NCBI GenBank assembly: GCA_001692895.1
Contig: KV748181.1
Location: forward strand, 1,178,001-1,242,000
Source: Cenococcum geophilum 1.58
Lineage: Eukaryota; Ascomycota; Dothideomycetes; Gloniales; Gloniaceae
DNA: 64,000 bases
Direction: 5' to 3'
In this document: piece after piece, positions 9,446 to 52,664 of the stretch
How positions within the stretch are numbered: position 1 is the stretch's first letter
Layout: every line of letters starts with the position of its first letter
Made by a program: the position numbers and the translations under genes
Notes under the pieces: model-generated
Seen by the model: the letters and a program-made list of their open reading frames with translations, nothing else
Databases searched by the model: none
Told to the model about the DNA's origin: nothing

Positions 9446-9589
9446 CGCATCGGGTCCCCGCTATATTCCCGATAGCCTCTACACGTGCCTCTGCCAAGTA
9501 TACCCCCTATATACACCTAGGTAGCCACCTCATTTTTTACCCTTCCTTCCTTACATCCTCCCTACCTAGGGGGACACCAGAACGACAGC

Positions 9590-9890: not shown

Positions 9891-9934
9891 AGCCAGCGAA
9901 CACTATAAACGATTCAATCGATCGATTGAATCAA

Positions 9935-13250: not shown

Positions 13251-13280
13251 TTTACTCCATTAAAAAAGAAAATGGAGATC
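13251..13280 (+). repeat. Left boundary: direct repeat and inverted end
   Basis: TTTACT at 13251-13256 is shared with the right boundary. It is followed by an A-rich spacer and ATGGAGATC (13272-13280), which mirrors GGTCTCCAT near the right end. TTAC TCCATTA A fits TTAC-N7-A. Confidence 0.75.
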
Positions 13281-13614
13281 TGACTGCCGGTTTTGGAGGG
13301 TTCTGTCGCCGTTTTTGGAGGTCGCGTCGCCAAAACTCCCCGCCGCCCTAAGCCTCTTGCTTGCCGGTTTAACGTTAAGCCTCTCGCTTACCCAGCCTAT
13401 GCCCCGTTTTTTACGGGCAGACTAGTTTATCTAGAAGTATAACCCTTTTACGCGCCTAGCACTAAACCTATATATACTCTATGGCTCCTACCTTTAATCC
13501 GTTTAACCCAGGCCCCGTTTCTCTTATTCTTTACCCTCCTATCTCCTTAACCCTACATTACTCTCTATATCCTTTCTGCTGTTACTACCCTAAGTTCTTT
13601 TCTAGCTCCCTAAA

Positions 13615-16090
13615 ATGCGGCGCGCTTAATTATTAAATCGTAGCTTATTATCTAGCGTTACTAACAATAAGTATATAGATATAGATAGCGACGGTAATAG
13701 CTACTAGACAGAACCGACCGTCCTTAACAGTAATACTAACAGCACTACTAAATCTAAAAATACTTGCGAAGCGTCCGCTTAAGCATAGCTTTATAAGGAT
13801 TAAGACTATCTACTAGAATATTACCTTAAATAGTTAGAAGAGTTTAAGGAATCTAATTTTACGACGCAGGACTACGCTAATGCCACTATAGCTCTCCTTA
13901 ACCGCATTAAAGAATACTAGGATTAGTAAGTAATAACCTATTTAGCGGCTTCCTCTTAGGCCTAACTTGGTAGAGAGCTAATAATTTCTAGATACTGCAC
14001 CTATATAGGGAAAGACCCTAAGAAAATATACCAAGTCCTCTCGCTTTAGCTCCTTTATAGCTTCTTTAACTAGTCCCTAAACTAGAAATAAGGGAAAGGT
14101 GGTAGGAAATAGTACGGGACGAAGGTTTCTAGCTCGCTTGGCCTATACTGGAAGTACTATCGCCTTATATACAAGAGAGCGACTAGAGGGAAAATTGCTA
14201 GCGAACTAAACCGCTAGATATATAAGGTGATTACATTCCTAGTTAATCCTTTAACCTAGTAAGGTAAGGCAGAGCTAAGATATCTTTCTTAGGTACTTTA
14301 GAAACTAGTGGAGAAACATAGTCTAAGCAAGAAAAAGTAAGAAAAGACTATTATAGACGCGGAGGATCTCGCCCTAGTCCTTAAGACTAACTTAGTTATA
14401 ACAAGGAAGTAATATATAGTTAGACGACATCGGATATAAGTGCATTTCTTAATATAACTAGGTCTTTACACTATAAGCCAACCTAAAGCTCTTCTAAACC
14501 TATGCTACCGATATATAATAGTTATACTTATTTAGGACCCAAAGGGCGGTCCCTATAACATCGTGCTTAAGTTTACATTTAAATTTACTAAGGAATATCT
14601 TAGTATAAAGGAAGCGTGTGTTATCTTTCTACCCTATTTCTTTTACCTTATACTTATAGAGAACTAGTAATACTTTCCTAATTCCTAAGATTATCTTTAA
14701 CCCCTTACTCATTCTTAGCCCTTACGTCTTTCTCTTAGGCCTCCTCTTTACTAACTAAGCTTTTAGAGCCCCTAACCTAACGTCCGCGGAATAGCTTACT
14801 AAGCTATATATTAAGCCTAGGCGTAACCAGTTACTACTACTACTCTATCCGGACCTAGATAATATCCCCGTATTTTAGCAATTAATTAAAGCTTTTTATA
14901 GCTATAAGGTCTTACCCGACTAACCTTTATAGTACTTAACTCTTTTACTATGGATTAAGGACCTTAGTATAATTACGGGATTTCGGCAGGTTACGCGCCT
15001 ATATAGTCTTCGTTACGGCGTAGGTAAGGCATTTAATAAAAATAGTAAGTTCTATTATATAGAGCTAGTTCTACTAAGACATTTCTAATATCTTTACTAC
15101 TTAGGTAATGTAACTAATGCCCTCCGGAACCTAATAATGTAGCACGCCGACGCTTAAACGTTCCTAAAGCACTACCTTTCGCGGCGTGTTAACGTAGATA
15201 CATAAGTAATTATTTAAGGCTTAGAGCCTTAAGAAAAGTTAATAAAAGTAGTATACCGAATAAGCCAATTAATTAACCCGCGGCGGCCACAGCACCTAAT
15301 AATAGAACAATCCTTATTGGTAAACAAGAACCCACGTATTTGTTCCTTAATTAAAGTTCAAAATAAGCTAAAGCTTAGCCTTAAGCGCAAAACCGCAGGA
15401 AGCACAGAATACTAAAAGCTTAGCCAAGAAATCACAAATAAAAGGCAACGTCAGAGAAATGTGCTATTAGAAAATATTAAGAAGAATTAGGATAATAAAT
15501 AAGCTGTAATTAATATTAAGCGGTAACTTTCCGGAGTTATATTTAGCGAGGATATTAAAGCAACCTTAAAATCTAATAATAATAGATCGGCCGAACACAA
15601 ACGCCTTATTAAAGTAATTATAACGCTACCTAGTACGTCACTAGAAGATAAGATACGTAGACGCAATAATGCTATTAATGCAGTTGTAGATTACTGCAAT
15701 GTTAAGGAAGGTAGAGCGTATTGGCTAAGTCATCGCCAGAAATAGTTTAGGATAGGTGTCGCCCTTAGCCAGGTTAAGATTAAAGAAGATACTAAGATTT
15801 TAGAAGCGGCTAAAGCGCTAGAGAGGGCAAAGGCATCCTTATATAAGGAGAAAAGACCAAAGATATACTTTATCTGCCTTAGGAACTAAAAGCTACTAAT
15901 CGGCAAGCGTATATATAAGTTCCACACTCTAGCTGCTCTTACAAAACATTTCCGAGAAGGGCATCTCTCTAAACTCCTATAGTAGGGTAAGATTAGATAT
16001 AACGTTTGCGAAGTGACCCTTAAGCATAAAATGCATCTTTAGAACTATGTGTATAGTATACATAGGACCTTTTCCTAGTCATTGCGCGCT
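13615..16090 (+). pseudogene. DUF3435 tyrosine recombinase (Starship captain) relic
   Basis: The first gene inside the left end, reading inward. The ATG at 13615 is a plausible start because the same frame carries conserved N-terminal text (DYLLEYYLK, EEFKESNFTT, DAEDLALVLKTN, then LLNLCYRYIIVILI and FTKEYLSIKEA). The frame shifts by one between about 14620 and 15000. The catalytic C-terminal part then follows: SLRYGVGKAF (Arg), *HADA*TFLKHYLSRRVNVDT (His and nucleophile Tyr, 15140-15200), then GLEP*EKLI and INPRRP*HL. A zinc-finger-like tail ends it (FHTLAALTKHFREGHL). The Arg, His and Tyr of the recombinase active site remain readable while Gln and Trp codons are stops. GC-rich upstream sequence (13270-13400) may hold the promoter. 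Family call is strong. Confidence 0.88.
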
Positions 16091-16689
16091 TATCTTATTA
16101 TTTGCCATTTTTTATCTTATTTTAGTCTATTGTCATCCAATCCTATTCCGGTATTTAGTAGAATAGATACAATAACTAGGATTTTGTAATTCGTCCAGGA
16201 GGCGAGGGGTGATAGGTAAGGTGAGGGTAAGGTAAGGGTAAGGTAAAGGATAAGATAAAGCGTGGGGTAAGGGGTAAGGGGTAATATAAGGGGAGGCTAA
16301 TGGGAGATGGATAATACAGTTGCTATATAATATCTAACGGACCAACTATAGACGAGATATACATTTGAATTTCTTAGATTAACCTAAATAGAGAAAGGAA
16401 TAGAAGTATTATATAATAACTTCCTACCTAAGCCGATCTCCTAAGCTATGCATCTTTACTTATATATAACGCTGGCACCTTTTATAATAAAGTATATAAC
16501 GGTAATTAGGGTTAGATAGATAACTGCTGTCCTTAATATAATATATAAACTCGGCTCTATAACCAATATTATAACAAGTCCTAGTTATACAGAGGGTATT
16601 AAGACAGTTATTAATGTTTTCGCTTTTGCGCTCAGCCGCGGCGAACCTCGCCTTAGCGGATTAAAGTAGTGATTCCGTTTGTTATAGCT
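16091..16689. other. Spacer with TAAGG-rich simple repeat
   Basis: No gene recognised. Positions 16205-16295 are a purine-rich run of GGGTAAGG / GGGGTAAG variants. It resembles telomere-type sequence only loosely and has no regular TTAGGG unit. Confidence 0.6.
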
Positions 16690-17560
16690 AAGACTAGATA
16701 GCTTAAAGTTTCTATATAAAATTTTCCTCTATGTCCTTAGATGCGGTAATCGCTATCCATATAATGCCGATAGCGAAATCGCTTATAACGTCTAGCTCTG
16801 TAAAGTCTTCAAGTTTAACAAGCTCTTTAATGCGCTTAGCTGCTATTAAGGTAATTATATTATGCAATACTAAGTCGCCTATCAGGCTGTCACAGTGCTG
16901 CAATGAAGTAGACTGAATAACTACGTTGTGGTATGAAGAGGGGAAGAAGGTGGAAAGGGGGTATTGTATACAAATAGTAGGGCCGGCCGCCAAGTCGCTA
17001 GTGGTGGGCCAGCCAACAGTAGGGAACAGTACGAGACAGTATGAAACAGTATGCGTCAGGTCAGTGCCGTGACACAGGCTAAAGACATCCTTAATAATAT
17101 TAGGGAACCCATCCGCAGACCAGCTAGTTCCTAAAATATATTAGATTTTTATATTCGTAAGCTCTTTCAGCTATAGTATATTATAGTAATCGGCAATTGC
17201 ATTAACACAGACGTGGTAAAGTATAATATCGGCCGTTATCGGCCATGTCGTTATATCTTCATTATCGCCACCGCCATTGTTATAGTCCCTCTTGTACATA
17301 AATTGGATTATTCTCTTAACGGTGCCAGAATCAAACTCGTTAATATTTATAATATTAGTCACCGCCTTCTATCCGTCAGTTAGTTAGGGTCAATTCCACT
17401 AGACACTTAGTTAGATTTTACCTAAAAGTCTCTATTACAGGCAGCTGCAAGTATAGGAGATTGGGTGCATATAATCGCTTTATAGACTTTAAACTCTAGC
17501 CCCTAGTATATAAGTTTCAAGTCGCTATATTTCTCGCTATCTATAAGCTGTGCTAAGCTA
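16690..17560 (-). pseudogene. BTB/POZ domain protein relic
   Basis: Minus-strand pieces follow the order of fungal BTB/POZ proteins: SDLKLIY*GLEFKVYKAII, then SPILAAACNRDF, an open frame with FDSGTVKRIIQFMYKRDYN, then VNAIADYYNIL*LKELT, and a C-terminal helical part (IKELVKLEDFTELD). The typical fungal pattern is SDL-G--FKVH----SP-FAA followed by ML-YLYTGDY and YA-ADKY. Two stretches (17171-17362 and 16712-16993) remain stop-free, so this is one of the less damaged cargo genes. Such proteins usually mediate protein dimerisation; the specific role is unknown. Confidence 0.75.
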
Positions 17561-18250
17561 AACGGAACACTTTTAAATATTATATTTCGTTGGTTTTCTT
17601 TCCTAGTTCTAGTTTTAACTACGTCTTAAGCAATATTTAAGGGAGTAATTTAGTGTTTAACAGGATAATTAAGAATAAGAACTCTACTTTATTAAACGTG
17701 GCTCTAGAGCCTCTATATATACATTAAAAAGTCGTTATTAGCTTTATCTAATCCGCGACGGATTTAGCTAATTAGTTAGAGCCTTAAACGTTAGTCACTT
17801 AACTAAGAACTTGTATGACTTCTAAAGTTCCAGGAAGGGTAAGTGGTGGGGTATACGGCCACAGCGCCTAGAAGTAGTTAGGTCATATAATAGAGGCTTA
17901 GTTAAAGGATATGTTCCCATAGCTTAGGTTAAGGCTCTATACTCCTCTAAGCCATATTAAGCAAAGTTAAATAGTATTATGTTCCTGCGTACCGGCTTAT
18001 TAATTACACTATTCCTGCGCCTCTAAGAGCGGTTTCCCGGTCGTCGACTTCTTGTTATTGGCTAGTTAAAGTATACTTTTTAGATAAGGGGCACTGACTA
18101 GATTCTCGGTTGATTACTTTATAAGTCTTAGAGATACTATATTCCCTGCTAACAATTCGCTAACTAAGCAAGTAGATTAATAAAACTAACCTCGCGAACA
18201 CACTGCTATATAAAGCTCGGTAGATAAAAATACATTTCCTAAATTAATAG
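17561..18250. other. Spacer without recognised gene
   Basis: AT-rich RIP-type sequence. Neither strand gave a recognisable motif. It separates two minus-strand relics and may hold their regulatory sequence. Confidence 0.4.
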
Positions 18251-19190
18251 GATCTAGTACAAAGAGTAATTACATAATGCTTTGGCATATTTAAGATACT
18301 TTAGAATTATATAACTTCACTATTATTAGCATTAACAAAATGTCTTTTAGGAAATGATTTACCATCTTCTATTATTAGTGGAGGGAACTCTCCTAGTATA
18401 TTAGATATTTATTTAACATTTACGCATATTATAGAGGGCTTATACGTACCAAAATTAGCTAAAAGCACTAAAGAACAATACTAAGAAGTAACGGAAGAGG
18501 TACGCAATGCAATATCGTTGTATATCTGCAGTAGAGGCATAAAACCTAAAGGAGCCTAACCATGCTCTGTATTGCTATAGTGCTTATCCCTTACATAGCC
18601 GTACGGCGATATTACAGTCTTTTTAGAGAACCCTAGACTTAAGCAAAACCAGCACTAAGAGATGCTTTTAAAAAGAAAATTCGGTTCCGGGTAATATAGT
18701 TATTTAGGTAAAGCCGCCGAGGAGTTTAAGGAAGATTAGATAGTGGATAAATCCAAAGACGGAGAGTAGAACTGAACTCCTTATATTAATTTATCTCCCT
18801 TATTTACCGTTATTCCCCTATCCGTTTTTTCTATCAGTTTTTCAGCCTCCTTTAATTTATTTAGGAGAGTCGCCTAGTTACGCCTCCACTTATAAACGCA
18901 TTGTGAACCAGCCAGTAAGCATCTTAAATAAGGTTTATCGCCATCGCCATTACACTTAAGTTTCTTTAAGGAGCATTAAAAGCACAATCTTATTCTCCTT
19001 AGCACTTAAATTCACAAGTCTCGACTATAGCTAGCAACAGCCCTTGCCCTATAACGCCACTTATATATCTTAAAGAGGTTACCTTAGAAGAAAGTTCTAG
19101 GGCATTTATCGCAATAGTAGGTCGGCTTTTTATCTATAAGAGTTAGGAATATACGCTGCGGTTAAATAGAGTAGAGGCCTATAGGATTTT
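18250..19190 (-). pseudogene. Zinc-finger transcription factor relic (C2H2 + Zn2Cys6)
   Basis: Minus strand. A C2H2-like finger (HCDKCPRTFFQGNLFKIYKW) lies at about 19036-19112. A Zn(II)2Cys6-like binuclear cluster follows at about 18895-18990 (CSLKKLKCNGDGDKPYLRC, then LLAGSQCVYKWRR), with some Cys changed. The rest (for example GFMPLLQIYNDIALRT, LVLLANFGTYKPSI) fits a long regulatory tail down to about 18250. Fungal regulators combining a C2H2 finger with Zn2Cys6 exist. The binuclear cluster is specific to fungi and supports the host assignment. Target genes cannot be inferred. Confidence 0.68.
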
Positions 19191-20119
19191 TAGTATCGGT
19201 TTAAGTGCCCCACTTAAAGATAACTTTTTGTACAATTTTTATAGTTACACACATAAATTTCCTAAATTAGTAGCCGCCCCTCTATAGGTAAACTGTTAAC
19301 TCTAGTAACTATAGGGTAGAGCATCCTTTTACTTACCTATTTCCATTCTATCGCGGCAGTTAGCAGTTAAAAGTAGACAGCTAAGTTTATATACAATATT
19401 AAAGAAGTTTAAAATACAGAAATATATAGAATTAAAGATGTAGACCACTAAGAAGAGGCGGGATATAAAGTTTCTACATATTAATATAGCGCTAACACCA
19501 ATATCATATATAGAATGATCTGGCGTATTAACAATTAATATAGTGATATAAGCATTCCTAATATAGAACACTAGATCTCTCTCTATTTAAGGCGTAAGGC
19601 GTCCTACTTTTTCGCGTTCTAGATAGTAGAAGAGTAGAATATAAAAAGTTAAAAAGATAAACTGTTAGGGAGCGGACTACTAAGCGGAACCTTTAGAAGT
19701 TTTAAAGAGTCCTATATCTAGGAAACACTGCGTAGGTAGAAGAAGCGAGCGAGAAAAAAGGGCCACTTTAATTACTTATAATACTTGTAGGGAACACGCG
19801 TCGTGCTTATTGCTATTATTTAGAGTATACATACTCCTAAATTATTTTAGTTTTAAGACGGCTTATTTTCTTAAATAGGTAATAAGCTTTAGGGATAAAT
19901 CTAATTAGCTCCTACTAAGCCTATTAAATAATTATATCGAAGGCTTGCAAAATATGGAGAGTTGTAGAATAAGGCTTAGGTTATCTAACCTTAAGGATCT
20001 CCCGCGATTTGGCTTAGATTATATCCGGGATAACATTAAGAGGAAAGAAAGTAATATTAGCTTCTCAATTAGCTCTTATCTAAATTATAGCGGAACCCTA
20101 AATGGTTTAGTAGCTTATA
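19191..20119. other. Spacer; two short open frames, no recognised product
   Basis: A 61-codon plus-strand frame (19945-20130, starting MQNMESCRIRLRLSNLKDL) and an 80-codon minus-strand frame (19329-19571) are open, but neither matches a family I know. The second may be the damaged 5' part of the zinc-finger gene. Otherwise RIP-type sequence. Confidence 0.35.
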
Positions 20120-21299
20120 GTAACTACTAAATCCTAAACGCCTTCGCACCGCAACTACTAAATTATAGACGCCTTCGCATCACGACTACTAAATTATAGA
20201 CACTTCCGCACTGGGACTACCAAATTATAAACGCTTTATACTGTAAGCACTAGTATAAAGAGCCCCATATTAAGATCTAATCCAATCATAATATGCGTAC
20301 TAGATTTAATAGTATTAGTAATAGATCCCGGTAGCTTAGGATAATAAAAGGGATATACTTATTACTTATCCAGTGTTTGTCTAGAGGGCCCTATATAGTG
20401 TTATATAATATAAGCTCCTGCGTAAATACTTTATCAATTCCTAGCACTCTTTAGTGGTAATAGGGATCTTAGGTACCCTGCTTTTCTAACGCTTAAAGCG
20501 ATATACGCTCTTTTAATCAATAATCCTTTTTATTTAAGAATAAAATGCTCAAATTTATTGCTGTTATTTAATATCCTTTAATATCCATTCCCTTCTATTT
20601 GCTACTAGTAATATATAATTACACCCAGGTTTACTATAAGTGTACTTATCTTCGCTATACCGTAAGAGCTTAGTATATAAAATACCAGGAGACGTAAAAA
20701 AGATATCCGGCAAACGTTATTACAGTATAAGAGCAAACACTTAAGCTATTAATATATAACTAATTTTCTGTTATAGTAAATACAGGCTTAATAAAAACTG
20801 CGGTATACCTCTATAGGTCTATATAGAGGCCCAAGAAGCTTATATAAGAATTTCTTCTAGGTAACTGCAAATATATATTAAACTAAGAGGCTTACTTAAA
20901 TATGCATAAGAAGGCAAAGGAGGAAATAATTTAATAAACGCAAAGGGGGCTGCGCATTGCTGGCAAAGGGCGTATACAATTCTCTTCTTCGTAAATGCAC
21001 TATAAATAAGCATTTAGGGTAGAGAAACCAAACTATCTCTAATAAAGCATTTGATATGTTCTAAACCTAGCGATAAGTAATAGTTATTATGTATGTCCGG
21101 CCCAAACGAAACTTACTTTAGAACGGCCCCTAGATAGTAGGACCTTAGACATAGGCTAGGTAAACCTCAGCATATATACTCACAACATTCTCTAATCGCC
21201 CGCCCGTTAAATACATCCAATAGCTTTTAAATAGGATAGCGGTAAGTAGCTCTTTATATACTACAGACGGTATATATACTAACATTTATAAAGAAACTA

Positions 21300-22456
21300 A
21301 TATATACAATAAATGCATCTATAAAAACATCTCCACTTCACCCCCAACCTACTAAACGTCAATATCCGCTAAAGAGAAAAGATACTAACCTACAATTGTA
21401 CCGTTTATCTATATTATATAAAGATCTCAATACGCGAGTTAGTGTTCTAGAGGAGATATTTAGGCTATCGCCCATAATATAAGTAAACGAAGTCGCCTTT
21501 ACTAAGGCCGTCACCGGTTACATTCTCGCCCTTAAGCATTATATAGGAGCTAGATATTTTCGACCCTTAAAGTTAAAAGGAGAGTGGGATTGTCCTATTA
21601 AAGATTATAATAGAAATTACCAGCGTCTAGATTTGTATTATAAGCATATTAAAACTTTAGAGGGGTTCAGGCATAAGATTTTAAGGCATTATCTCGACCA
21701 GGATACGTGTCTACCGTATAGCTACTAATTTAACTCTCCTACTGGTCTTCTTTAATATAAGCGGAAAGCTTATAGTGTAAAAGCTTTATTACGGACTTAA
21801 ATGTTCACACCATTTATAACGTATATTAAGAAGAGTATATTATAAGATTATATCATTTTAGAAATGCTTATAGAGATATAGACTCACAACCGGTAGAGGC
21901 TAGTAGTTAAATAAAACAAACAGAAGACTCTACTATTTATATGCCTTATATAGACTCGCTAAAACCTAGCTTTAATAGCGGTGGCTAAGGAGAATCTATT
22001 TCTCTAAGCGCTAAAATAGGCCCCTTAACTTTAAAAGCCGAAGATAGCACTTAAATGCCCATCCCAACGTCTTTTACAGGAGGAGACTTTAAATTCACTA
22101 TAGCACCAAGCACTACGCTACATGCGATAAAACCTAAAGCACGAAAAGGTAAAAGGGTATTTAAGTTCTTTATGGCACCAAGCGCTGCTAAAGAGGGTTT
22201 CGGATTTACTATAGATCTATATACTAATTTTTCTGTTAAACCTAAAGCTAGAAGGGACTTTAGGTTAGGGTCACCAAGTGCCAATATAGTTAGGTTTAGT
22301 GGAAATGGTGCTAAAGGGGATTTTAGATATATAGCTCCATATATAGAGTTTCTAGTAGGTAAACCGGGGGGTTATAGTAAGGGAATTTTTGAATTTAGGA
22401 CAAAACCTTGCGCCGCTAACGTTCCCTTTATAGATCTTATATTTAGAGCGGGCTAG
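21300..22456 (+). pseudogene. C2H2-like zinc-finger relic followed by a repeat-rich open frame
   Basis: The first part reads SVLEEIFRLSP, then GEWDCPIKDYNRNYQRLDLY with YKHIKTLEGFRHKILRHYL and LDQDTC. This is a CPI--C---Y-R-DHL-RH pattern of fungal C2H2 proteins, with some Cys and His mutated. The second part, 22055-22456, is a 133-codon frame without stops (MPIPTSFTGGDFKFTIAPST...). It is built from repeated blocks around KPKAR and FKFTIAPS/FKFFMAPS. Whether the two parts were one gene is unclear. No precise function can be given. Confidence 0.45.
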
Positions 22457-22459
22457 GGT

Positions 22460-24200
22460 TAATAAGCATAGCTTTAGGACTCTTAGTAAAGAGATTAGAT
22501 AAAATATATCTTAAATAATGTAAACTAGTTGCGTCTTACTACCTATTAAGTGGGCTTATTCCCATTCCATATATAATAAATTACTATTACTTTCCCTTCT
22601 CTAATAGTAGGAGTTAAACTTAATCATCTCAGCTACCCATTATAAATAACACTGATTTTAATAAGAGCTGGCTTAATTAGTAGGCGCAATTACTTACATA
22701 TCCCCTCTATATGCTTTAATAATAGATATTTTATTAGTCTCTTCCTTTTAAAGGGCTGGGTTGTACTACATAATCTATCTCTAATTAGTATCTCCTCCAA
22801 GATAATAGCAACCAATAGCGATAATATCGTTGTTATTAGCTAGCTATTTCCAATCCGCTAATTATCTAATTATAAGTGTAGCATATTAAGGGAAATTGTG
22901 TTCTTTAATATATAAGACTTAAAAACCACCATCCCTAGTAAAACTAATAAGGGCATTTATAAACTTTAAAGGTATTAGTAAGCAGAGCTTTTTTTCCTTA
23001 AAGGAAAGAAAACTGGCATAACCTTATTCTCGTTAATTTGCGGCCACTTTAGAATAGTATTGGTTGCACCTTTAAGGACCACAATGCCTTAATCTTATAG
23101 AAGCTGTAAAACAAGATAGGTAGAGTTCTTGTCGGATAGGTCTAGCGACTACTCCTCCTAGTATCTATAGACTTTAAGGGCAAGGAAGCTTATATCTTTA
23201 ACTTAGAGAAAATCTTAACCTTTATATAACGCGATTTAAATTTAGGGCTAGTTGCTTTACCAATACTAAGAGAACCGGAAAACTAAACACATAAATAAGA
23301 GCAAAATTTGATTAAGAAACAACCCATACCCTAATAAAGCTTTTATTTATCTAACTATAAGGCACTCCCTATATATTACACATTTAGTAATATACTCTTA
23401 GTTCTTATTACTATATACTAGGTATATAACTACCTAGCGCATTATATCCAACTACTGGAAAATATTCGCGGCGGAGTCATTTATTACCGTTTAGAATAGC
23501 ATTTTCTAGTAATTAGCTTAGTATTCTATAATTATCTAGCCACATACATATTATTAACCTTGTTTTAGTTTTAGTATATCTAGTTAATCCAGGGTATCGG
23601 TATAACGGAGGCTTAATAACTAAAAAGCACCAAATCTATTATTGCGTCTACTCCGTATATATATACTTAAAACGCAAGTCAGCCTAATAGTACACTTAAA
23701 GAGGCGGACAGCTCTTATACATATAAGGCAACCATTAATAGAACTCAGCCTTACGCCTAATTTATAAGAAGGATTAGAGGTTAAGCGGGACTTGTTATAT
23801 ACTAATATATTTAGAGAAACAGTCCCCGTTCCTAGGATTACTTACCTTTAGCGTAAATTATCTCCTTTAAGTCGACTACTTAGAAGTAAGGCGGCGGCTC
23901 GTTTTTATATAACCTTTCCTACTTAATAACAGCTATCTAACCGTGTCTCTAACTGGTATTGATTGGTGTTTCCTAGACATTATAGAGTTTTATCTTAGGC
24001 GCCGGATTTAGTTATAACTTAGTATTACTTTAATACTTACTTACAGATTTTAATCCTTGTTTATAATTACTGGCTCATTTAATCTTTAATTAAGGGATAA
24101 CAACTATATTAAAGCAATGGATTTGGATTTAAATATACTTAGCCAAAAGAGGCGGTAATTACCACGTCGGCCGTAAGTGGCGGCTCTAATTTTTAGCATA
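22460..24200. other. Unrecognised AT-rich region inside the 4.2-kb segment
   Basis: Short coding-like patches exist on the plus strand (for example LVKLIRAFINFKGISKQSFF near 22940), but no family motif is recognised on either strand. Confidence 0.35.
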
Positions 24201-24399
24201 TCTATAATTTAGTGGTTACGGTGCGAAGGTGTCTATAATTTAGTAGTTACGGTATAGAGGCGTCCATAACTTAGTAGTCGCGGTGCGCTACATCTAGGAT
24301 TTAGTAGTTACCGCATAAAACGCCTCCCCTAGTCCCCTAAAGTCAGCCCATCCCGCCTACCCTAACACATCTATAGTCTTATACTAACTTTATTTATCT

Positions 24400-25460
24400 T
24401 AGGAGATAGTATATAACCCCCTAGAAAAGCATTTCTAATATTACACTAGTTCTTCTATAAGTCGCGATAAGATATCTAAGGCCACTTCCCTATAAGTTCT
24501 GGTATCGCCAGCACAGATATAAGGGCGGCAGGTTAACTAGGGCAAAAATATAATTACCTTCTCCCTTTACCGCTCTTAGTTATTTCGGTTGTAAAAATGC
24601 ACAATTATTAGTTTACCTACGCTACGTATTTCTATACACAGTTCTTTTATTACTTTATACTATTCCGTATTATACTTTATTAGTACTATAAGCCAAGCCA
24701 CTTCTAAGAGCATCTTTTGCTTTAGGTACTCCTCCTTTTTATTTTTCCTAAACTCATTATTAGGCTTCTTATTTAGCAGTACAAGAAGCTCTAAAAAGTC
24801 TACCCACCCCAAGACTTATTATAGCCAATAACTTAGTTACTAGAGTCTCTATTATTACTTATATTAGTTATCTAGGTTTATAAGGCCACTATATTAAAGG
24901 AATCCACTAATAGGGAACTAGGTTATAAGTCTATGGAACTCCTACAAGTAATACCGCCAAAGCCCCCGCCTAGCACGCTAGGTACTTATTATTACCATTT
25001 TATTCCCTTCCCTACTCCAGCCTTCTAGTATAGTGCTATCATTCTTAATATCAAGCCAACTCTTAGTACGCGTCTTAACAGCTTTAGGAAGCGTCTTAGT
25101 GCAGGTTCTATTTACTATAGCCCAACTTATTATAAAATAGGAGTAGCGCACACATCTAGGCTGCAATGCATCTTCTTAGGTTATAGTAAAATAAATCTAG
25201 TCGGATAAAGCATCGCGAATAATTATACTTAGTACAATTATTAGCTTTTTTCCAGCTATAGCAAGTTTAATTCTCCTTATCTTCTCTCAGACAGATTATT
25301 ACTTCTTAGTAAGTAAATTATCTAACCTCTAAAGAAATCCTCTAATATAAGGTAGTGGGTATGCGTTACAGTGTTTACGGTAATATCTTTATCAGAATAT
25401 ATAGGTTTTTAGAATTATAAATTGCAGGAAAGTAACAGGATTAAAGATAAAAACCCCAAT
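24400..25460 (-). pseudogene. Unrecognised coding relic
   Basis: The minus strand holds a 62-codon open stretch (24978-25166, including ISWAIVNRTCTKTLPKAVK and ILEGWSREGNKMV). It is flanked by further in-frame text upstream (AIAGKKLIIVLSIIIRDALS) and downstream (NNEFKKNKKEEYLKQKMLLE). Intact Trp codons and a coherent frame suggest a real gene. I do not recognise a family. Confidence 0.35.
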
Positions 25461-29299: not shown

Positions 29300-29343
29300 A
29301 TAGTAGTAAATAATATAGACAGAATGGAGGGGGTTAGAAGCTA

Positions 29344-29441
29344 GTATATACGCTTTATAGATAGCATATACGCCTTATAGATAGTATATACACCTTATAG
29401 ATAGCTAGTACGCCTTATAGTAAGTATAGTACGCCTTACAG
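29344..29441. repeat. 20-bp tandem repeat, about 5 copies
   Basis: Units like TATACGCCTTATAGATAGTA, decaying toward the right end, directly after the ABC transporter relic. Confidence 0.8.
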
Positions 29442-30699: not shown

Positions 30700-30780
30700 G
30701 CTAGGTAGTTAGGCATAGCGCCCTCCAAACATATAGCTAGGATCTTAACAGATTTAGTAGCTATGGCTTTAATCTTATAA

Positions 30781-31390: not shown

Positions 31391-31399
31391 TCTGACCTA

Positions 31400-32340: not shown

Positions 32341-32349
32341 CGCTGCGCT

Positions 32350-35750: not shown

Positions 35751-36309
35751 ACAATATATACCAGCGGAGGGGGAGTCCGCGTATACTAGATCCAGTTCTA
35801 GGAACTAAAACCTGTTTTTGGGAAACAGGTCAATTAACCGCTATAAAAAGATATTAACTGTATCCGTATTTGGCATATTAGATTTAGCTTATTTTAGAAC
35901 TAATAATCGTTTATTAGCGTTCTTAGGCGCCCCTTTAGCCTCGCTATATAAGAGCTCCGCTATATTAGAGCCTTACGCATCGCGGAACAAACTAAAACTA
36001 ATAAGTATAACCAGTTATGGACTAGAAAACGCTACCTACCCATTATAGCTTAGTATTCGACTAAGCCCTACAAAGCCTTAGTCTAAGCCACATTAGGTTA
36101 GCTTAACTTTTCTACGCCCAATCTTTAATCTTCGCGTTCGCTTATACCTTGCTTTCTTCCTTATACTTTTCTCTCTAGTCATTTCCTTATTATAAACCAC
36201 CACCAACGTGTTCTTGACCTCCCTATACTTATTATACCGTCCTTATATACTAGCATCTTTAATTTACCCTTCCCGCCTGCCTACCCGCCTGCTATATCTG
36301 CCCTCTTAA

Positions 36310-38755: not shown

Positions 38756-38759
38756 TATG

Positions 38760-40230: not shown

Positions 40231-40339
40231 ATCAGGTCCCTATACCCTACTATCCTATATAGGCTTTATATTTCCATAAAATATATAATCTACTCCTAAG
40301 CCTATTAGAAGCCGCCTTATGCCGCCTAAATAGAGGCCG

Positions 40340-41060
40340 TAGGAGAATTAATCCCTTCCTCTAACTAATCCCCTACTTAAATAAGTCCCCTACTTAAACA
40401 AATCCCCTATAGGAGCCAATGCCTACGTATTTCGCCGCCCTATAGGAACCAATCCCCTACTCCTAATAATCCCCTACGGGATCCGATCCCCTACTCTAAC
40501 AAATCCCTTATAGGATCCACTTCCCTATAGGATCCACTCCCCTACGGTAACAAATCCCCTATGGTAATAAATCCCCTACGCCAATGAATCCCCTGCGGGT
40601 GCCAATGCCTACGTGTTCTACCGCCCTATGGGAACCAATCCCCTACAGCTTACATTCCCGTACGGCTTTTACTCCCCTATAGAAGCCAAAAGCTATATTT
40701 TCCTCTCCCCTACGGGAACCAATACCCTATAGCTTCTATTCTCCTATTCTTAGATTTACTATAGAACAAATCCCCTATAAATTCCGTTCCTGTAAATAGT
40801 AACTATATCTTCTACTAGCCTATAAAAACCATACCCTATAGCTCCTACTCCCGTACGGCTTTTACTACCGTATAGGAACTAATAGCGATTTTTTTCGCTC
40901 CCCTACGGAAACTAATCTTGTATAGCTTATAGTTCTCTATAGGGATTATTACCCGCTTTCTTTATCGCCTTATAGCTTTTAATTCCTTACAAAAACTAAC
41001 GCTTATATCTTTTACTCCCCTATAGAAACCAATACCCTATAGCTTCCGTTTTCCTATTCC
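40340..41060. repeat. Degenerate 17-bp minisatellite with CCCCTAYGGG palindromes
   Basis: Units such as GTAACAAATCCCCTATG and GGATCCACTCCCCTACG repeat at 17-bp spacing around 40500-40590 and become irregular to about 41060. Many units contain the near-palindrome CCCCTA(C/T)(A/G)GGG, often followed by AACCAAT. Partly spared by RIP. Confidence 0.75.
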
Positions 41061-41189
41061 CAGATCTATAAGTAATTCGCCTACGCTATAGCCTACCGTA
41101 TAGGCTTTATTATTATAGGAGCAAGTAAGTAATTTTAAGAAAGTAATAAGTAATAATACCACCAGCTATAGGATCTATAAGATATTTAA

Positions 41190-43480
41190 TGCTATATATA
41201 TATAAGCGAATCTATATATATAAGTTTATATTCTTAACTAATCTAGCACCTTTAAAGTTACTTTCAAAATTTTTATTTAACGTAAGAGCCTTATCTAAAT
41301 GCTTATATATAAGTTTCTCCCCCTTACTTTTAGCCAAGCCGTAGCTAATTTATATAGTGTTCTTAATCTAATACAGTATATTAGCGCTAGGCTTAAAACT
41401 TTTACTTAAACATTGCCTTACCTATCTTCTGTTTAATTAATAGTCTAAAAGCCGCTCTATATCCCTTCTAGAGATATTAGCAGCAGTATTAGCTTACTTT
41501 AGGAAGTCCTTTTATACCTACTCCCTTGCCAGTTTTTTTAGCTCATTATATTTAAGTATAAGATGTATTCTGCTCTGTATAGCTATATTAAATACAGTAA
41601 TTCTATTTATTATAAGAAACATAATACCTTAAAAATACTCTATCTATCGCAGAAAGACAGATACTAGGCTATTACGTTAAATATTATTTAAAGTTCTTTT
41701 TATAAGAAAGACATCGGCCTTATCTAGAAGAAGGACAGCACTCTAGTAGTAAACGTTTTTAATTATTAAAGCTAGGTTTTGTTCTAAACGGACTAGATCT
41801 ATATTAAGGTCTCCTATATAAGCCTTCTTATAGTTAAACTAATATATAAATACACTTATAAAGGGGAACAAACTATATAGAGGGGTCTCCTCTAAGATTT
41901 GGCAAGTGCTTTAGCTGTTAATATCTTTCCTACCCTAGGTGGGCCACTAAAACGGTTAGCCTTTAAAACAGCCAATGCCTTACTAGAAAACTTACTATAG
42001 TAAGAAGACTAGGCCTTTCCCCTTCCCTTTAATTATATTATTAAACTTTAATTCCCTGGACCTAGACTAGTAGCTCTTTATAAGTCCTTAAAGCACTATT
42101 TTCTTATCCTCCTTAATTGTAAGTGACTTAAATACTAAGGGATTCCATTTAATGTCCTTAATGTTAGCGACGGCAAATTCACCTATTAGTGCTTATATTA
42201 GTATATATAATTCCCTAGCTCTAGAAAAAAAGTATAAAAAGCCTAACCCTATTTTTTGTTAGCCAAACTAAAGGCTAGGGCAGTTAGTAGACAGATTAGG
42301 TACTTATTATCTCCTATCTCCTTAAGAACTAAACCCTAACTCTTTATATCGCCTTACTAATTAGTCCCTTAATTAATCACGCTTATTCTATATATATCTA
42401 TAGCGATTAGCTACTTACTATAGTTAGGATTCTAATAATAAAATGCTATTACGTCTACTATAATACGGCCGCTTATACTAGTAGAAAATCTTAACGGGCT
42501 ATCTTTGGTCTAGAAAAACGCGATCCCTTTATATTTATAGTAGTTAATGCCTCTTAAAGATATGAACTTCTGGCCATTACTAATAAGATCCTGCTTTATC
42601 TCGGCTTATCTCTTATAACGCTCTAGCGGAAATACCTTAAGAGACGTAATTTTTATAGTTAAACGGAATTCCGGAATAAAGAGGGTAGTTTTTACCTCGC
42701 TAAACGCCTTCCTATTATAGCCGAAATAGTAATAGTTAAATTCGAAGCTCTTTTCGCTAAAAAGTAAGGTTTTAAAGTTGCCTAAATTATATATAAGGTA
42801 TCTTAGTTAATCCAAGCCTTTGCAAATTGTAAGGACGTGTGTATTTAGTTTAAATAAGGCCCAGAGAAGATTAAAATTAATTTCGCTATAATCTAGAAGC
42901 GGTAGGAGACTATTAGTTATAGGCGCGAAATAGTCTTTAAGGAATCTTAGTAACCCCTAAAAGTGCTTAGCGCTAGTTAAGTTGGGAGAAAGACTCTCCT
43001 AGTATGTTTTTAACTAGGGTAGGAAATTAAATATAATATTTATAGGAATTTAGAAGTTAAATTAGAATAAGCTATATCTATAAAAAGGTCTACTTACTAT
43101 AGGCTTGTCTTCCCAAAGGGAGATAGCTTGTACGCCGTTTAATACTACCTATAAGGCGTCCCTTACTTCTCCTAAATTTATGCCTAGGTACATACTGCAG
43201 TCTTTCTTGTCCTTTTTTAGCTTAAAGTTAGTATCTAAGTTAATATATTTAAAGGCACCTAAAAGATAGACTAAATTTCTTCTAAAGGACACAAATATAC
43301 TAATTATATATATTACGCTTACTTAACGTATCCGGCGAAGTCTCTATGGTCTTATACTAGCAGCTTTATTTATCCCAGCTATAGTAAACGCTACATTAGC
43401 GTATTTCTAAGTGTGTTTTAGGGATTTCGCGAGCATATATCTTATTTAACACCTTAACTTTAACCTTAGAACCTCTTACT
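41190..43480 (-). pseudogene. AAA+ ATPase relic
   Basis: On the minus strand the ATPase core reads LTIKEDKKIVL*GLIK, then FSGPPRVGKILTAKALA (Walker A, 41900-41950; expected GPPGVGKT, the Gly to Arg and Thr to Ile changes both fit G/C transitions). It continues with AVLLLDKADVFLIKRTLNNI (Walker B, 41705-41745; the catalytic Glu of DEAD reads Lys), EYFQGIMFLIINRIT (sensor 1), and IAIQSRIHLILKYNEL (arginine-finger region, 41555-41590). The lid ends with NISRRDIERLFRLL. This is the fungal group with a long N-terminal half before the ATPase core; the N-terminal text to about 43480 is less readable. The substrate is unknown. All catalytic elements are damaged. Confidence 0.82.
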
Positions 43481-46379: not shown

Positions 46380-48895
46380 TCTATATAGCTAAAAGTATAA
46401 CCGCGTAAGTCTGCGGGACTGGTAGCTATAAAGGAGAGGTATTCTATAGACGTGAAATATTAAGCAAATATTGTCTTTTGCAATGCGTTCTTAATTACAG
46501 ATAGTTATCTAAGGAGGAATAGCAGCTAATTTGGGAATTTGTTTTAGAATAAAAGGCTATAAAGTATATACGCATTTAAGTACAACTATTATAGAAGATG
46601 TAAGTTATTAGGCACATGCTACGCAGGGTGGAATGGCTACGCTGATATTTACCTTAATAGCAAGAATAGAATTGCTAGATAACTGCAAAAGGCAGAATAC
46701 GAGAAACATAAAAAGAGGTAGATCGTAGGCTTAAACGGAGAGCGGCTTTGCGAAAATGCGCTGCGAATAATTAGCAAAGTAGGGTTAAAGGAAATTTATA
46801 AGGGAAAATAGAGGTATTGCTGCAGTTAATAGGTTTATAGCTGCTTAGGCGTTAGTGCTTAACAAAAAGGCTTATATAAAAGAATTGCGAAGCGGCTACC
46901 TCTTAGGCTGCGGCCGGATTTACCCTGCTTTACTATTAAAGCTTTCTAGCGCAAAACATTACGTGTATAATTAGGCCACCAGCCAAACAACGGGTAAGGC
47001 GTCTGTTATAATGCGCATTTTAGCTATATATTAGCCGTAGTTTAGGGGATTAGAGTCACTAGATATATATAGCCCCTCTACTAACTAAAATATCTCTAAG
47101 GATTGGATTCTTGTGGCTCGATCTTATTTATAAGGCAAATTAACTGCAGCTAGTTTATACGCATTTACGTCGTATGCATAAGTTAATCAATTATTAACGC
47201 CCAACTTTATATTATTCGGACTGCCGCTTAGTTTTAGCTGTATTATGTAATTTAAATTGGCTGGCCAAGTTATAAACGTAGTTTCAGCCTTATATTCTCT
47301 ATTGTTCGTGGCGTTATAAGTAGTAATAAGTGGCTCTTGCTTACTGCCCTTAAAAAAGTAATACTCTTACGGACCTTTTCATGCAGCCCTTATATAATTG
47401 CCTTCCATTTGAGGCGTCTTGGGAAAATAAGTTATTCCGGCCGAGAACCGCCCATATACCTATCCGCTTACCACACTAAGTTACGTACCTTTAACCAGCA
47501 CTTACTATAGTCCTCAATTATAATAAATACTCGTTAAGTAAACCTCCTCATCTTATGCCCAAATTCTCTTCAACGCTAGCCGCTGCCTTATATCTGCGCA
47601 AAAGCAAATGCTAAAAGGGCTTACTGGTTTTCTTAGGGTGGATATTAGCAATATAATAGGCCTATAAAGCTACTAAATGCGAACGCGTTAAGCCGAAAGC
47701 GGAATAGGCTAGATAATTAACAGCGTTTTATATATAGCGGTCTTCATCTAAAACACACTAACGCGGGATGTAAAAGGCTGAAGCAAACTTTAAAAGGCCT
47801 CTATCTTTATTAAATGCCACGCTAAATGCGTCTGGTGCCTTATAGGACTATAGGGTGAGGCTCTGCAGGAAGCTAAATATATAAGACCCCGGAGTTGGGA
47901 GTAAATACATAGCCAAAGGTGTAGGACTGACTACCTCGATGTAAGGCAACAAAGTTAAATATTTTAGAGCCTTAGCTAACTGGTTATTTATTTAATCTAG
48001 TTCTAACTTAAGAAACAGTCAAACTTATATATATATTTTATTCGTTTACAACCTTAATACTAACTGCTTTATATATCTTGTACGCACCTACTATTTTATA
48101 GGCTATAGCTATGCGGATTAGAATATCTGGGAGGAAATAAATAGCTATAGCGGACAATGTACAGGTAATAATATTACGTAGACTAGGGGAACCCCAGATT
48201 GGGCGGGGAGTTATTATAAATATGCCTACCCTACTCTAGAGTCGCAAGACCTTCTTGAACATAACTATGGCCTTAACTGTCGCGCGCACGACACTATATA
48301 CTATATCGCCCCCTATTTAAGTTCTTATCACCACTCGCCCGGCTCTACTTAACTCTTATTAATCGGATACCAATTAGGCGGACACAGAGTTAATTTATAT
48401 ATTCTCTAAGCAAACGCTTGGTTTTTCTGACACTATAGTAGATATAAAGCCTACACGGCATTTAATTATAAAAGTAGTAAGATATATTTAGATTATCTTT
48501 AACTATAGGGTTTCTAAGAATGATTATAAACCTTCTATAGCCGCGTTTTAGGTATTAGACGGACCTACCTTTTCGACTGCTAGATTTTACTATCTAGGAT
48601 TAGAGAAAGAGGTAAATAATATAGTGCATATATCGCGGGGTCGTAGCGCGAAATTTCCCACCTAAACAGACCTTCGGAAGAATCGAGATACTTAAGAAAA
48701 TACAAAGCAATGAATTTCGTCTTTAAGCTCTATGTAAGTCTATCTACAGCCAATACGAATTGGGTGCCAAGCGCTAAGAAGAGGACCATTAATAGCATCC
48801 TCTCTCATTATTTCAAGTATAACATTAAGAATATTTATGCGTTAAGGTCATTACCTATAAGGGAGTCCTTAGAGACGGCTGGCTTGCTATAATAT
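46380..48895 (+). pseudogene. Unrecognised long coding relic
   Basis: Plus-strand patches recur over 2.5 kb: CYAGWNGYADIYLNSKNRIA (46615-46675), IVGLNGERLCENALRIISKV, KKVILLRTFSC and KQYSYGPFHAALI-type text near 47350, IPAENRPYTYPLTTLSYVP near 47430, and SYYKYAYPTLESQDLLEHNY near 48215. The last part contains a stop-free 60-codon frame (48710-48892). The sequence is rich in Trp, Tyr, Asn and Cys, which might mean a secreted or surface protein, but no signal peptide or family was identified. It could be two genes. Confidence 0.38.
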
Positions 48896-49049
48896 AGAGT
48901 ATAAATATAACTAAAGTAAAAGAAAATGCAGACACTATAACTATGCAGATGCTACCCATTAATATAATAGCCTAGTAAACCGGTTTCGTTTGTTTTCTAG
49001 CGTGTAAAGGGTAGTATCGCTAATTGTCACCTTAACCGGTAAAAGAACT

Positions 49050-50749
49050 ACCACTAACCGAAACACAAAAATACGCCTAAGCTACTAGCCCCGTCTCTTC
49101 TACACGGCAACCCTACCCTTCACTTTCACAACTTTAGAAAAAGAGTACACCTGCGACAATCTAGCTTTAGCTTACTAAACGCGTCTTTAGTAAGACTTAA
49201 GGGCATCTTTAGAACTTAAAAGCCCGCTTTTATAAACCTAGGTAGGCTTCTAAGCTACCTTATATTTGCGCCCTAACTTAGTTATTCTTTCCCCTAGAAT
49301 ATCGTCAATCTCCCATTTATCATCTAAGCTCATTTTGTTAATTTTGTCTTTTTTAGTCCTAGTATAACGCTTTATAGTAGGCTCTAGGTTTAAAACGCCG
49401 CTTTAGTTATTAGTGACGCCACCGCTATTACCGTCCTCGTCCTTATTATAAGTACGATTACTAGCCTTATTATATGACGGTTTAATACTATAAAGAAGGG
49501 TAGGCTCCTAAAGCAAAGAGCTAGCGGGCCGTAGAGTAGATACTGCTTACTAGTTAACTTACGGGTATTAAGAATCGAGGTTAAAGATAAAAGGGATAGG
49601 GGGGCTAGAAGATAAGTCTTTGCAATAGGTAGGTGGCCTTTATTACTTTTAGGGACGTAGACTATTACCACCCTCGCCGCCCTCGCTACCCCCGCTACTC
49701 TCTTTAGTAGGGTTATTAAAATTATAACTATTATTAGCCCTATCTTCTGGTGGTCTAGTATTATAAGGAGATATATAGTGCCAGGGGGAGGAGCTAGTAG
49801 GCCGCGTAGTAGAGACCGCTCGCTCCTTAATACCGTCACCGTCGTTAAGGCTAAGGGTAGGAGAGCCGGAAGGCGTAGTCCTCTAGGAAGCAGGTGACCT
49901 TTATTACTTCTTAGGTCATATACTCTCGCCACTCTTACTAATAGAAGTATTAGAGATATAATTAATGCTATCTAGTTAATTAAGCTAATTAGACCTCCGC
50001 TTCTTTAACTTCTTAGCTTCTAAAGACTCTTAACTAGCAGCTACTAATATTCTAAGCTCCTGCCTAAACTGCGGAGCAGTTCTAATGCGACGCCCCTTAG
50101 CTAAATTATCTATTTAATTGCCGTCTAGCGTTAAGGGTATAGTACGGTTATGCGTAGATGCGCGTACCTCCTCTTCCAGCGCTTCTAACAAAGGCAGCTC
50201 CTTATTATCTTTATTATCCTTATTACTGCCGTTATTTCCATTATCTACTAATTATTAAATAAGGCTATTATAAATTAAAAAGGGAAGCGTATACCTAATC
50301 CACAAGGTATTAGTCAATTATTGGCTTTGTTAGCTTTGTCATTAGTATTACCAGCTTTATCGCCCTAGATTTTCTACTAGTCGTTAAACGTACATATTTA
50401 TAACTGCTGGGGGAATAGGGAAAGTGTGGTGGGGTAATTGTAGGGGATAATTACCTTAACTTCCTCTAGAGACTTAACTATTATTTCCATCCCTATAGAA
50501 ATCTTCCTCGTCGTCCTTATTATCCTTATTATCCTTATAATACTTCTTATAAGCTTTCTTATAATCATATATAGGGTCTACAGGCGCTTTATTAGATAGA
50601 ATCTCCAAATTAAGGCCCTAGGTGGAATAACATGCCATTAAGTGCCTAACCTTCCAATGCTTCTTAACTTTTTGGGGGGAAAAGAGGTACTCCCCTATTT
50701 CTCCTTTCGGGTTTACTACTCGTGCTTTTCTTAGGGGCTATAATTGCAT
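49050..50749 (-). pseudogene. Relic of a low-complexity protein with a chromodomain-like tail
   Basis: The minus-strand start is probably the ATG at 50749 (MQL*PLRKARVVNPKGEIGE, then YLFSPKKVKKHWKVRHLMAC). An Asp/Lys/Asn-rich stretch (KDNKDNKDDEEDFYRDG) and Ser/Asn/Gly-rich text follow. Two tandem blocks of about 290 bp (49390-49680 and 49680-49935) share AVSTLRPASS / AVSTTRPTSS and RPP text. The C-terminus at 49254-49325 reads DDKWEIDDILGERIT*LGRK and YKVA*KPT*V. This resembles the first half of a chromodomain (E-I--IL--R----YKV-WKP). A long open frame in another minus-strand phase (49390-49932) is a shadow. Function unknown. Confidence 0.45.
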
Positions 50750-50759
50750 AATGCTAAGA

Positions 50760-52040
50760 AGCCCTTAGTTTTTCAGGGGGTGCAGTATAGAAATTGATAT
50801 TATTAAGTAAAATTTCTAAATAAAAGCGAAGGGGTTAAGAAGATGCCACTATTACTGCTGCTATTATTATTAGAGTTATTATTGCTTTATATCTTTCCAA
50901 TAGCCCTAAAGGACGGGTTATACTAGGCTTTTAAGTCCACGCTAGTCTCCTCTTCGCCACCAGCTCACATCCGCAGCATCTACACTAAAATAACCCTACT
51001 AGCTTAATAGCGAATTAAAACGTGTAATTTACGCTCTATTAGTAATTACCGTTTATAACATATAAAGGTTTATACGGGCTTAAACTGTTATAAGATTAAT
51101 GCCTATTAAGAAACTATAATTAAGACCTAACTAACTAAGCTGGCATATTCTGCCTCTAACAGGGGCATTATACTAAGCCTCCCTATTAAGGAGGTTAGTG
51201 GCGAAGTACCTCCTCTACCCTTATTTCTTAGAGTTAGGGCTAGCGCTAATGTGTCCGTTTTCTACCCTAATATACTAGCGAGCTAAATCCTCCGCGCTAG
51301 ATCCTCTACGAGACCATAATTCCTAGTATTAGACAGGTAAAGGGCGTGCTGTAATTCTACTATAAGTATTAAAAGACACTCTAAGTAATAAGGGCATCCT
51401 TAAATCTCTCCCCTAGATCCAAGGAACTTCCTTAGTTACACTCTGTGGAGCTTATAACTGCTACTTAACCTCCTAAATATACGCAAAAGCCTTACTTTTA
51501 CCCTTACCTATAGCCGGATATCATAAATAATATAAGGGGGCAGATAGCGCGAGTAGATTAGGCGATTACGCCCGTATCTATCTCGGCCCTTTTAGCTAAT
51601 ACAGCCACCGCATAAAGTCCGTCTCCGTTAGGAGATTAAATACGCGAATTTTTCTCTAGTATTTATTAGCCAAGAGTAGGATTATAACACTAGCTCTACT
51701 AGAAGCTAGGCTATACTACTAAATAGGCCGTTTACCCCTAGATTCCGCCTTATAAGTCTTAGGTCTATATAAAGGATATTTCTATATAACCCGTACCTCC
51801 TTAGCTAAATAGGGGGCTGGATTAGACTAAAGCCCGGCGGCTTCTTTAATCGCAATGCAATCCTCTAATTATTAGGGAAAAGTAAGGTCTAGGTCTAGGT
51901 TAAGAAGGCGCTAAAGAGGGCGAAGGCTTCTAGCTTCTGGCGGCGCAGCTTTAACCAAGCTAAGTAACTAGCATTAGCCTATAGTTTCGCTAAGGATCCA
52001 CTTCGGCATCTAGCTTCGCCTTTATTGTAACGCTATAATG
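50760..52040. other. Spacer without recognised gene
   Basis: Contains a TTA/TAA microsatellite-like patch near 50850-50890. Short coding-like stretches occur on the plus strand near 51340-51760 but no family motif is recognised. Confidence 0.35.
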
Positions 52041-52049
52041 CGACACTGC

Positions 52050-52630
52050 CTAACGTATCCCGCAGCTCGCAGTAGCTATAACCCGTATAATCTATTACTA
52101 GGCGGTTCTCGGTACAGCCTTATAGCCATTTATAGCTGTTCCGACAGGGATTAAGTTGTATATTATAGTCACGCCTAAGACACTACTAGAGGCGGAGGTA
52201 AAGAAGAGGATAAACGGAAATGTTATTCCGGTGCACTAATCGGTAGGGGACGTAGGCAGGAGGAGAGGAGAGAGGAGAGAAGAAAGGAGGAATACGGTAG
52301 GACTAAAGCATACGTTAATACTAGGAGAGAGTATAAATATATCCTATAGAAAGGGCTAAAGAGTTATAGCGCTGGGTAATCGTTAGTATAAAATATGCGG
52401 AGATTAGGGAAGGTAGGTAGAGCACCTGCATAGACGCTAAGGGGATAGAAAATGCCTTACGGCTAACAGCTAGAGTCTAAGGTGGCACGGTAGCAAAAAA
52501 GAAAAGAGGAGATAGAGCATAAGGGCAAAAGCAGTAAGGGAGAAGGCCTTTTATAATTAAGGTTAAGGTTAGGTCTTGGCCAAACTGGGGTAAGGAAGCG
52601 AGCGCGCCTTACCTATAAAGGAACCTCCAT
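52050..52630 (+). pseudogene. Unrecognised relic at the right end of the giant element
   Basis: One plus-strand frame reads for roughly 190 codons with stops only at probable Gln positions. It includes FIAVPTGIKLYIIVTPKTLL, KKRINGNVIPVHQSVGDVG, a basic RRRGERREERRN run and KMPYGQQLESKVAR. It ends just before the right inverted end. No family recognised. Confidence 0.35.
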
Positions 52631-52642
52631 TTCCTAATACGT

Positions 52643-52664
52643 GGTCTCCATCTTATTTTTTACT
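52643..52664 (-). repeat. Right boundary: inverted end and direct repeat
   Basis: GGTCTCCAT (52643-52651) mirrors ATGGAGATC near the left end. It is followed by a T-rich spacer and TTTACT (52659-52664), the direct repeat. Reading on, TTAC TTTTTAT A fits TTAC-N7-A and would be the original target. Confidence 0.75.

Follow-up and report, generated by a model that had tools for sequence, protein, structure and literature searches.

A dead, exactly bounded Starship within a Plavaka transposon and its high-copy family in the Cenococcum geophilum genome

The stretch of the Cenococcum geophilum 1.58 genome analysed here (64,000 nucleotides, C6:1178001-1242000; 'the window') contains a dead, exactly bounded Starship at positions 13251-52664. 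It is very probable that this giant transposon was inserted in a Plavaka transposon by its DUF3435 recombinase, or 'captain', and that it multiplied, was altered by repeat-induced point mutation (RIP) and exchanged cargo and ends between lineages. As a Starship the element itself is not new in type; what is unusual is the family to which it belongs. Starships are mostly known as one or a few copies, which makes their crossover site, cargo exchange and transposition intermediate hard to study. A single genome with some 70 left and 70 right ends is a natural experiment that yields the crossover site at the level of single bases, together with a target logo. An initial annotation had proposed a Starship, and the ends, empty site, inward captain, target, mobility and variable cargo described below uphold that assignment.

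The element and its ends

The element is delimited by TTTACT at both ends, placed to the base where the initial annotation had put the repeats of a 39.4-kb segment, and by two short inverted motifs (Table 1) that, as proposed, match each other, at 8 of 9 bases. These terminal inverted repeats, a common though not invariable trait of Starships, are conserved between copies, RIP-type changes aside. A 301-base query from the left end gave 40 scored places (of 128 first-look candidates), the window included; among the 39 others, 25 alignments start at window positions 13250-13253 and 14 begin up to 10 bases further out. The corresponding 351-base query from the right end also gave 40 scored places (of 166 candidates, window included), with 20 of the 39 other alignments stopping at 52663-52666 and 19 running up to 26 bases past. 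Direct reading of the junctions places the ends at the claimed bases. The flanks are unlike at most of the 30 right and 8 left ends read, and a few share a repeat, indicating that the same element occupies different sites.

The genome (177,193,698 bases in 162 contigs) was searched with patterns that tolerate RIP and allow up to 2 mismatches. Counting those of the window, 69 left ends and 70 right ends were found; reversed-pattern controls gave none. Relatives are thus present in the element's own genome, the left end recurring at 68 further places and the right end at 69. Matching the ends as a stack yields 45 left–right pairs, with 24 left and 25 right ends unpaired. Pair sizes span 28-139 kb (median 40.4 kb), with classes at 33.2-34.0 kb (n = 11) and 39.2-40.4 kb (n = 8, including the window). 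For the two longest pairs (138 and 139 kb), mispairing or later insertions may account for the size. The idea that the common size of about 39 kb denotes one arrangement is not supported, as a probe from 20500-22500 misses the other copies of this class (best 40 of 77 candidates).

The captain lies 1.1 kb inside the left end and reads inward, with no Pfam match between the two, which agrees with its earlier description as the first inward gene. Its three matching pieces are parted by two intron-like gaps of roughly 45-60 bp, judged by eye in an alignment of 12 copies. A first, inward-reading captain, short target-derived direct repeats, short inverted repeats, empty sites, variable cargo and a length of tens of kb are all features shared with the Starship superfamily as it is described in passages of PMC12153272 and PMC11905480.

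Table 1. Features of the window (window coordinates; descending coordinates are given as matched on the minus strand)
Feature	Position	Strand	Details
Starship element, captain end at left	13251-52664	+	39,414 bp including both TTTACT; ends recur; empty site
Left direct repeat TTTACT	13251-13256		TTT from target, AC shared, T from element
Left inverted motif ATGGAGATC	13272-13280	+	Read in window; left-end junctions and pattern search
Right inverted motif GGTCTCCAT	52643-52651	+	Read in window; right-end junctions and pattern search
Right direct repeat TTTACT	52659-52664		TTT from element, AC shared, last T from target
Captain pseudogene, DUF3435 (PF11917)	14362-15694	+	Pieces 14362-14646, 14666-15043, 15104-15694; E 4e-77
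Plavaka transposase (PF18759) flank, profile 196-317	12786-13157	-	E 3.6e-8
Plavaka flank, profile 121-168	52820-52677	-	E 0.0031, below curated cut-off
Plavaka flank, profile 37-124	54922-54674	-	E 5.4e-6, at curated cut-off
Captain-end module common to C34	13250-18015	+	3 transversions in 4,574 aligned columns (stretches counted)
Cargo block, no C34 match of at least 100 bases	18016-30657	+	20500-22500 probe found in other family copies
Mostly shared cargo block (kinase; 38712-40045 unshared)	30658-41131	+	Transversion density against C34 low in places, high in others
Right-end module	48850-52664	+	Lineage-B transversion markers at 51265, 51327
ABC transporter domain (PF00005), degraded cargo	28655-29098	+	E 1.6e-15
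Fungal protein kinase (PF17667), degraded cargo	37185-38405	+	E 2.5e-81
DUF7025 (PF22942), degraded cargo	42618-42905	-	E 2.2e-14
Zn2Cys6, sub-threshold match	18984-18883	-	Pfam

The empty site in a Plavaka gene

The flank at 12800-13256 is also present at at least 39 other places. These are Plavaka loci, and in all 29 that were fetched (of the 39 listed) the left flank, through TTTACT, overlaps the right flank by exactly 6 bp; right-side identity to the window flank is 83-92%. The Plavaka loci are therefore a clean empty site. Both flanks of the element match the PF18759 Plavaka profile, and by arithmetic on the profile-match coordinates the frame is continuous over the join once the element is removed. 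The two halves thus fall on adjacent parts of one family. The continuity that the initial annotation had claimed is retained, and its assignment of the interrupted gene to the KDZ transposases is ruled out in favour of Plavaka. The Plavaka pieces of the right flank (52677-54922) are themselves parted by a reverse-transcriptase element, which has an RVT_1 match at 52843-53262, occupies about 52830-54670 and lies in the Plavaka copy just beyond the right end.

Crossover site and target motif

Twenty-nine pairs were read, and the left end was obtained for 27 of them (all except C9 and C20). The left end has the form NNNACT in 27/27 copies read at both ends; the variable triplet is TTT in 16 and ATT, TAT, TTA or GTT in the remaining 11. 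At the right end all 29 copies have TTTAC; the next base is T in 26 of them, and the other three have G (2) or C (1). Since both the left triplet and the base that follows the right AC vary, each is attributed to the target, and only the AC need be shared. The crossover falls in this AC core, within TTTACT-N3-TAAA. The right tip of the element brings TTTAC and the left tip T-CYATT, so that the 'direct repeat' mostly reflects target preference: the repeat reported earlier is present, and what is always common to both ends is the AC and not a fixed duplication.

The target consensus, TTTAC-T-N3-T-A-A-A, was derived from 28 left and 36 right junctions. Among the right junctions, T occupies +1 in 32/36 and +5 in 28/36, and A occupies +6 in 32/36, +7 in 31/36 and +8 in 26/36. 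The preference for A at +8 has a binomial p of 1e-6 against window base composition alone, and +6 and +7 are more fixed still. The motif contains TTAC-N7-A, bearing out the earlier suggestion of a target of that type. TTAC(N7)A is the canonical target of Hephaestus, as cited in the relevant passage of PMC12153272; the likeness to Hephaestus-family Starships lies in the target motif (the TTAC core and the A at +8), and the target here is more specific. In three sets of insertions (L012/L031/L032, L020/L029/L030 and L017/L027) the right flanks appear to be the same point of the same repeat, and some repeats may be preferred targets.

Two further junctions join one copy to another. At C52:608614-608671 a right end runs directly into a left end with one TTTAC between them, and the same right–left junction, again with a single TTTAC, is found at C3:4543531-4543588. 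These head-to-tail junctions look like the product of a joined circle inserted at a resident end. A circular intermediate has been proposed but, according to a passage of PMC12506042, not yet demonstrated by any study; the junctions supply the exact joined-end sequence such an intermediate would have in this Starship family, namely TTTAC of the right tip and then T-CYATTAAAA.

RIP and ordinary divergence

Each of the 32 two-kb blocks into which the window was divided, in the element and in its flanks alike, has a composite RIP index between +0.54 and +1.40. The claim of a fossil Starship with RIP-mutated cargo is therefore confirmed as to RIP; the mutation is not peculiar to the element, as the flanks are affected as strongly. 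Nor is a RIP-degraded Starship the unusual state it had been taken for, because 'derelict' ones are already in print: Pi-rho (PMC11623301) and the Gaeumannomyces GtA element (PMC11905480). In the published descriptions available to us, these resemble the present element in carrying RIP along their whole length, and differ in being single or few across species, whereas the present family is dispersed through a single genome and carries RIP mutations at every place read.

RIP makes no transversions. Separating transitions (RIP) from transversions (ordinary divergence) exposes bursts and exchange that percent identity hides. The alignment of 12 captain copies has 413 variable ungapped columns, of which 381 show transitions only, most commonly in a CpA/TpG context. 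Against copy C34, the captain end of the window differs by 287 transitions and 1 transversion (3,636 columns), and the kinase block (34909-38711) by 589 transitions and 143 transversions (3,801 columns); transversion density against C34 also shifts inside blocks. A near absence of transversions is not a peculiarity of the Starship, because 30 Plavaka sequences have a median of 0 transversions per site with 0.098 transitions. As Plavaka is equally transversion-poor, a fast burst and subsequent RIP are not confined to this Starship family.

Two DNA-methylase loci in the genome are free of stops and are putative RID/DIM-2 genes; stops interrupt a third. There is also a single match to the MAT alpha-box. 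Together the methylase loci and the alpha-box suggest that the means for RIP and mating are present.

A high-copy Starship family

The number of ends sets this family apart from the Starships described in A. fumigatus, which according to a passage of PMC12153272 are at most single-copy with few exceptions, compared with 69 left and 70 right ends in this one genome. The same source notes that some other species appear to gather multiple Starship copies. No Starship family of comparable copy number came up in the literature searched (open-licence papers, by title and start of abstract). RIP may limit Starship copy number (PMC12153272); in this genome RIP has acted, yet the family became high-copy before or despite it. 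The C. geophilum genome is given as 178 Mb with 81% repeats in the available text of PMC5023957.

Captain lineages and a probable chimeric copy

Compared by transversions, 19 captains fall into discrete groups. In set A, the captains of the window, C2, C34, C12 and C19 are separated by 0 transversions from one another, and C66 and C65 lie 1 and 2 from the window. In set B, C29 and C11a differ by 0, and C1a, C32 and C3d are 2-6 from C29. The window captain is 22-25 transversions away from set B (C29, C11a, C32, C1a and C3d). The captain protein alignment omits L105 (copy C60, frameshift) and C34, and the DNA comparisons include both.

The right end groups differently. At 51265/51327 the window has C/T, as do all five set-B copies, C8 and C3c; the six other set-A copies all have purines at these positions, as do C5b and C60. 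Among 28 right ends a pyrimidine is present at 51265 in 8 and at 51327 in 10, the extra two being L038 and C3a. The marker list was drawn up without L012 (about a quarter of sites divergent), L102 (which duplicates C34) and L013 (incomplete pairing, transversion counts 3-4), and the density matrix for the right end covers 20 of 31 rows. With a captain of group A and right-end markers of group B, the window copy appears to combine a captain end from lineage A with a right end from lineage B, and, judged from these sequence groupings, it looks like a chimera of two co-resident Starship lineages.

Cargo distribution points in the same direction. Three other copies, one of them with an estimated end, carry the 20500-22500 block some 7.1 kb inside the left end, and it also occurs elsewhere at different offsets (best 40 of 77 candidates). 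A block of C34, which has a group-A captain, occurs at 85-91% identity in 11 other paired copies, including C29 and C11a with captains of group B, and more weakly in three further copies (best 40 of 100 candidates). By these matches, cargo is shared between captain groups. Cargo swapping between Starships has been described (PMC11623301); in the portion of that paper available to us the resemblance lies in one cargo occurring with differing captain backgrounds, and the difference is that the lineages here reside in one genome and the markers are transversions.

Proposed history and alternative explanations

The following sequence of events would account for these observations. The DUF3435 captain, a putative tyrosine recombinase, would excise or copy the element and join it into a TTTACT-N3-TAAA target, here within a Plavaka transposon, with strand exchange at the AC common to element and target. 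A circular intermediate would carry TTTAC-T. The family would have grown to dozens of copies by short bursts of distinct lineages, perhaps between rare sexual cycles, with RIP mutating the copies afterwards. Ends and cargo would have been swapped among co-resident lineages, and such recombination may explain why captains and right ends group differently. We consider the chances about even that the family as a whole lived as an ordinary high-copy transposon does, with transversion-free captain bursts, exchange, head-to-tail insertion of joined circles and then shared RIP silencing.

Several observations weigh against parts of this account. For the circular intermediate, no far end was detected for either partner of the C52 tandem, and the upstream partner at C3:4543564 is a short right-end remnant beside another repeat. 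For the host origin of the left triplet, a search for the empty site of copy C40 gave 0 matches, which RIP and divergence may hide. An AlphaFold2 model of the captain (343 residues, 10 alignment rows) has a mean predicted local distance difference test (pLDDT) score of 40.5, and the captain's recombinase fold and catalytic residues are putative. Canonical Starship cargo comprises ferric reductase, DUF3723, patatin-like and NLR genes, and none of these was detected in the element by Pfam. Copy number is affected in that right ends were assigned to only 45 of the 69 left ends and the longest of these pairs are perhaps mispaired. For the chimera, the right-end grouping consists of just two transversion markers, the second of which extends to L038 and C3a, and the comparison of markers by captain copy is without C119, C31 and C52, which were unreadable there. 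C8 and C3c have a B-type right end and a captain nearer to C31/C119 than to C29, which indicates that right-end types are not strictly bound to captain lineages, and C5b and C60 have the A-type purines with captains outside lineage A.

A segmental duplication, or a nest of ordinary transposons mimicking one element, might be expected in a genome this rich in repeats, and parts of the region resemble C34 at 67-92%, with the right end 89-92% alike to 39 other places. The same two ends nevertheless recur at 68 and 69 other places, mostly with unrelated flanks where read, the exact empty sites (29/29) refute duplication or nesting, and a six-frame Pfam search (X at stops, E 0.01) found no reverse transcriptase or other transposase domain inside the element. 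This explanation is extremely unlikely. A Crypton-like or other DUF3435 transposon carrying host DNA, outside the Starship superfamily, would fit the missing canonical cargo and the copy number, which is more typical of ordinary transposons. It is hard to reconcile with the many pairs of at least 33 kb with conserved ends, a captain that is first and reads inward, cargo that varies among copies and a TTAC-N7-A-like target, and we consider it very improbable, if less remote than duplication or nesting.

Two alternatives concern the chimera. The copies are similar, and an assembly misjoin of an A and a B copy is possible in principle; it would bring together the flanks of two loci, whereas the flanks observed are the two neighbouring halves of a single Plavaka gene and meet at the same 6 bp as the 29 empty copies. 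Because the flanking Plavaka is intact on either side, a misjoin is disfavoured and seems very improbable. The right end may instead have been replaced after insertion, through gene conversion by a copy of lineage B, rather than by an exchange of cargo that preceded transposition. This is a serious contender, if one somewhat short of an even chance, and is a variant compatible with the history proposed above. Dispersed repeats can plausibly convert one another, and transversions against C34 are unevenly dense; on the other side, the window copy also differs from C34 in size and inner blocks, and no breakpoint was located.

Other captains, cargo and surroundings

A PF11917 profile search of the genome gave at least 165 matches (best 100 of 347 candidates). 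All 55 C-terminal captain matches placed in the window family by layout contain stops, and among the matches listed only C49:753315 and C33:1229663 are without them. The DUF3435 matches with one stop or none, at C49:752543-753905 and C33:1229663-1230259, are possibly other captains that are still open; a pattern search found no end of the window family on contigs C49 and C33. A second DUF3435 set, of which C45:178644, C59:960590, C31:2072120 and C9:1330679 are examples, covers about 1-210 of the profile, with 6-13 stops in these four and a layout unlike that of the window family. It probably represents a further captain family of this genome, likewise mutated by RIP.

Degraded cargo domains of the window copy are listed in Table 1. 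A six-frame search of 10 kb of the inner region of C34 gave no Pfam domain. Within the element, the sole stop-free frame of at least 150 residues (193 residues, 49390-49971, minus strand) has no Pfam match. A tandem array with a 17-bp unit lies at 30929-31391 and is also present, in a different arrangement, in C34.

Outside the element, positions 1-2326 and 61711-64000 form 2.3-kb direct repeats that are 86% alike and extend past both ends of the window, and further direct repeats occur at 4316/57389 and 5052/58743. The left flank also contains 12- and 20-bp tandem arrays at 8950-9914, where the G+C content of the window peaks (0.55).

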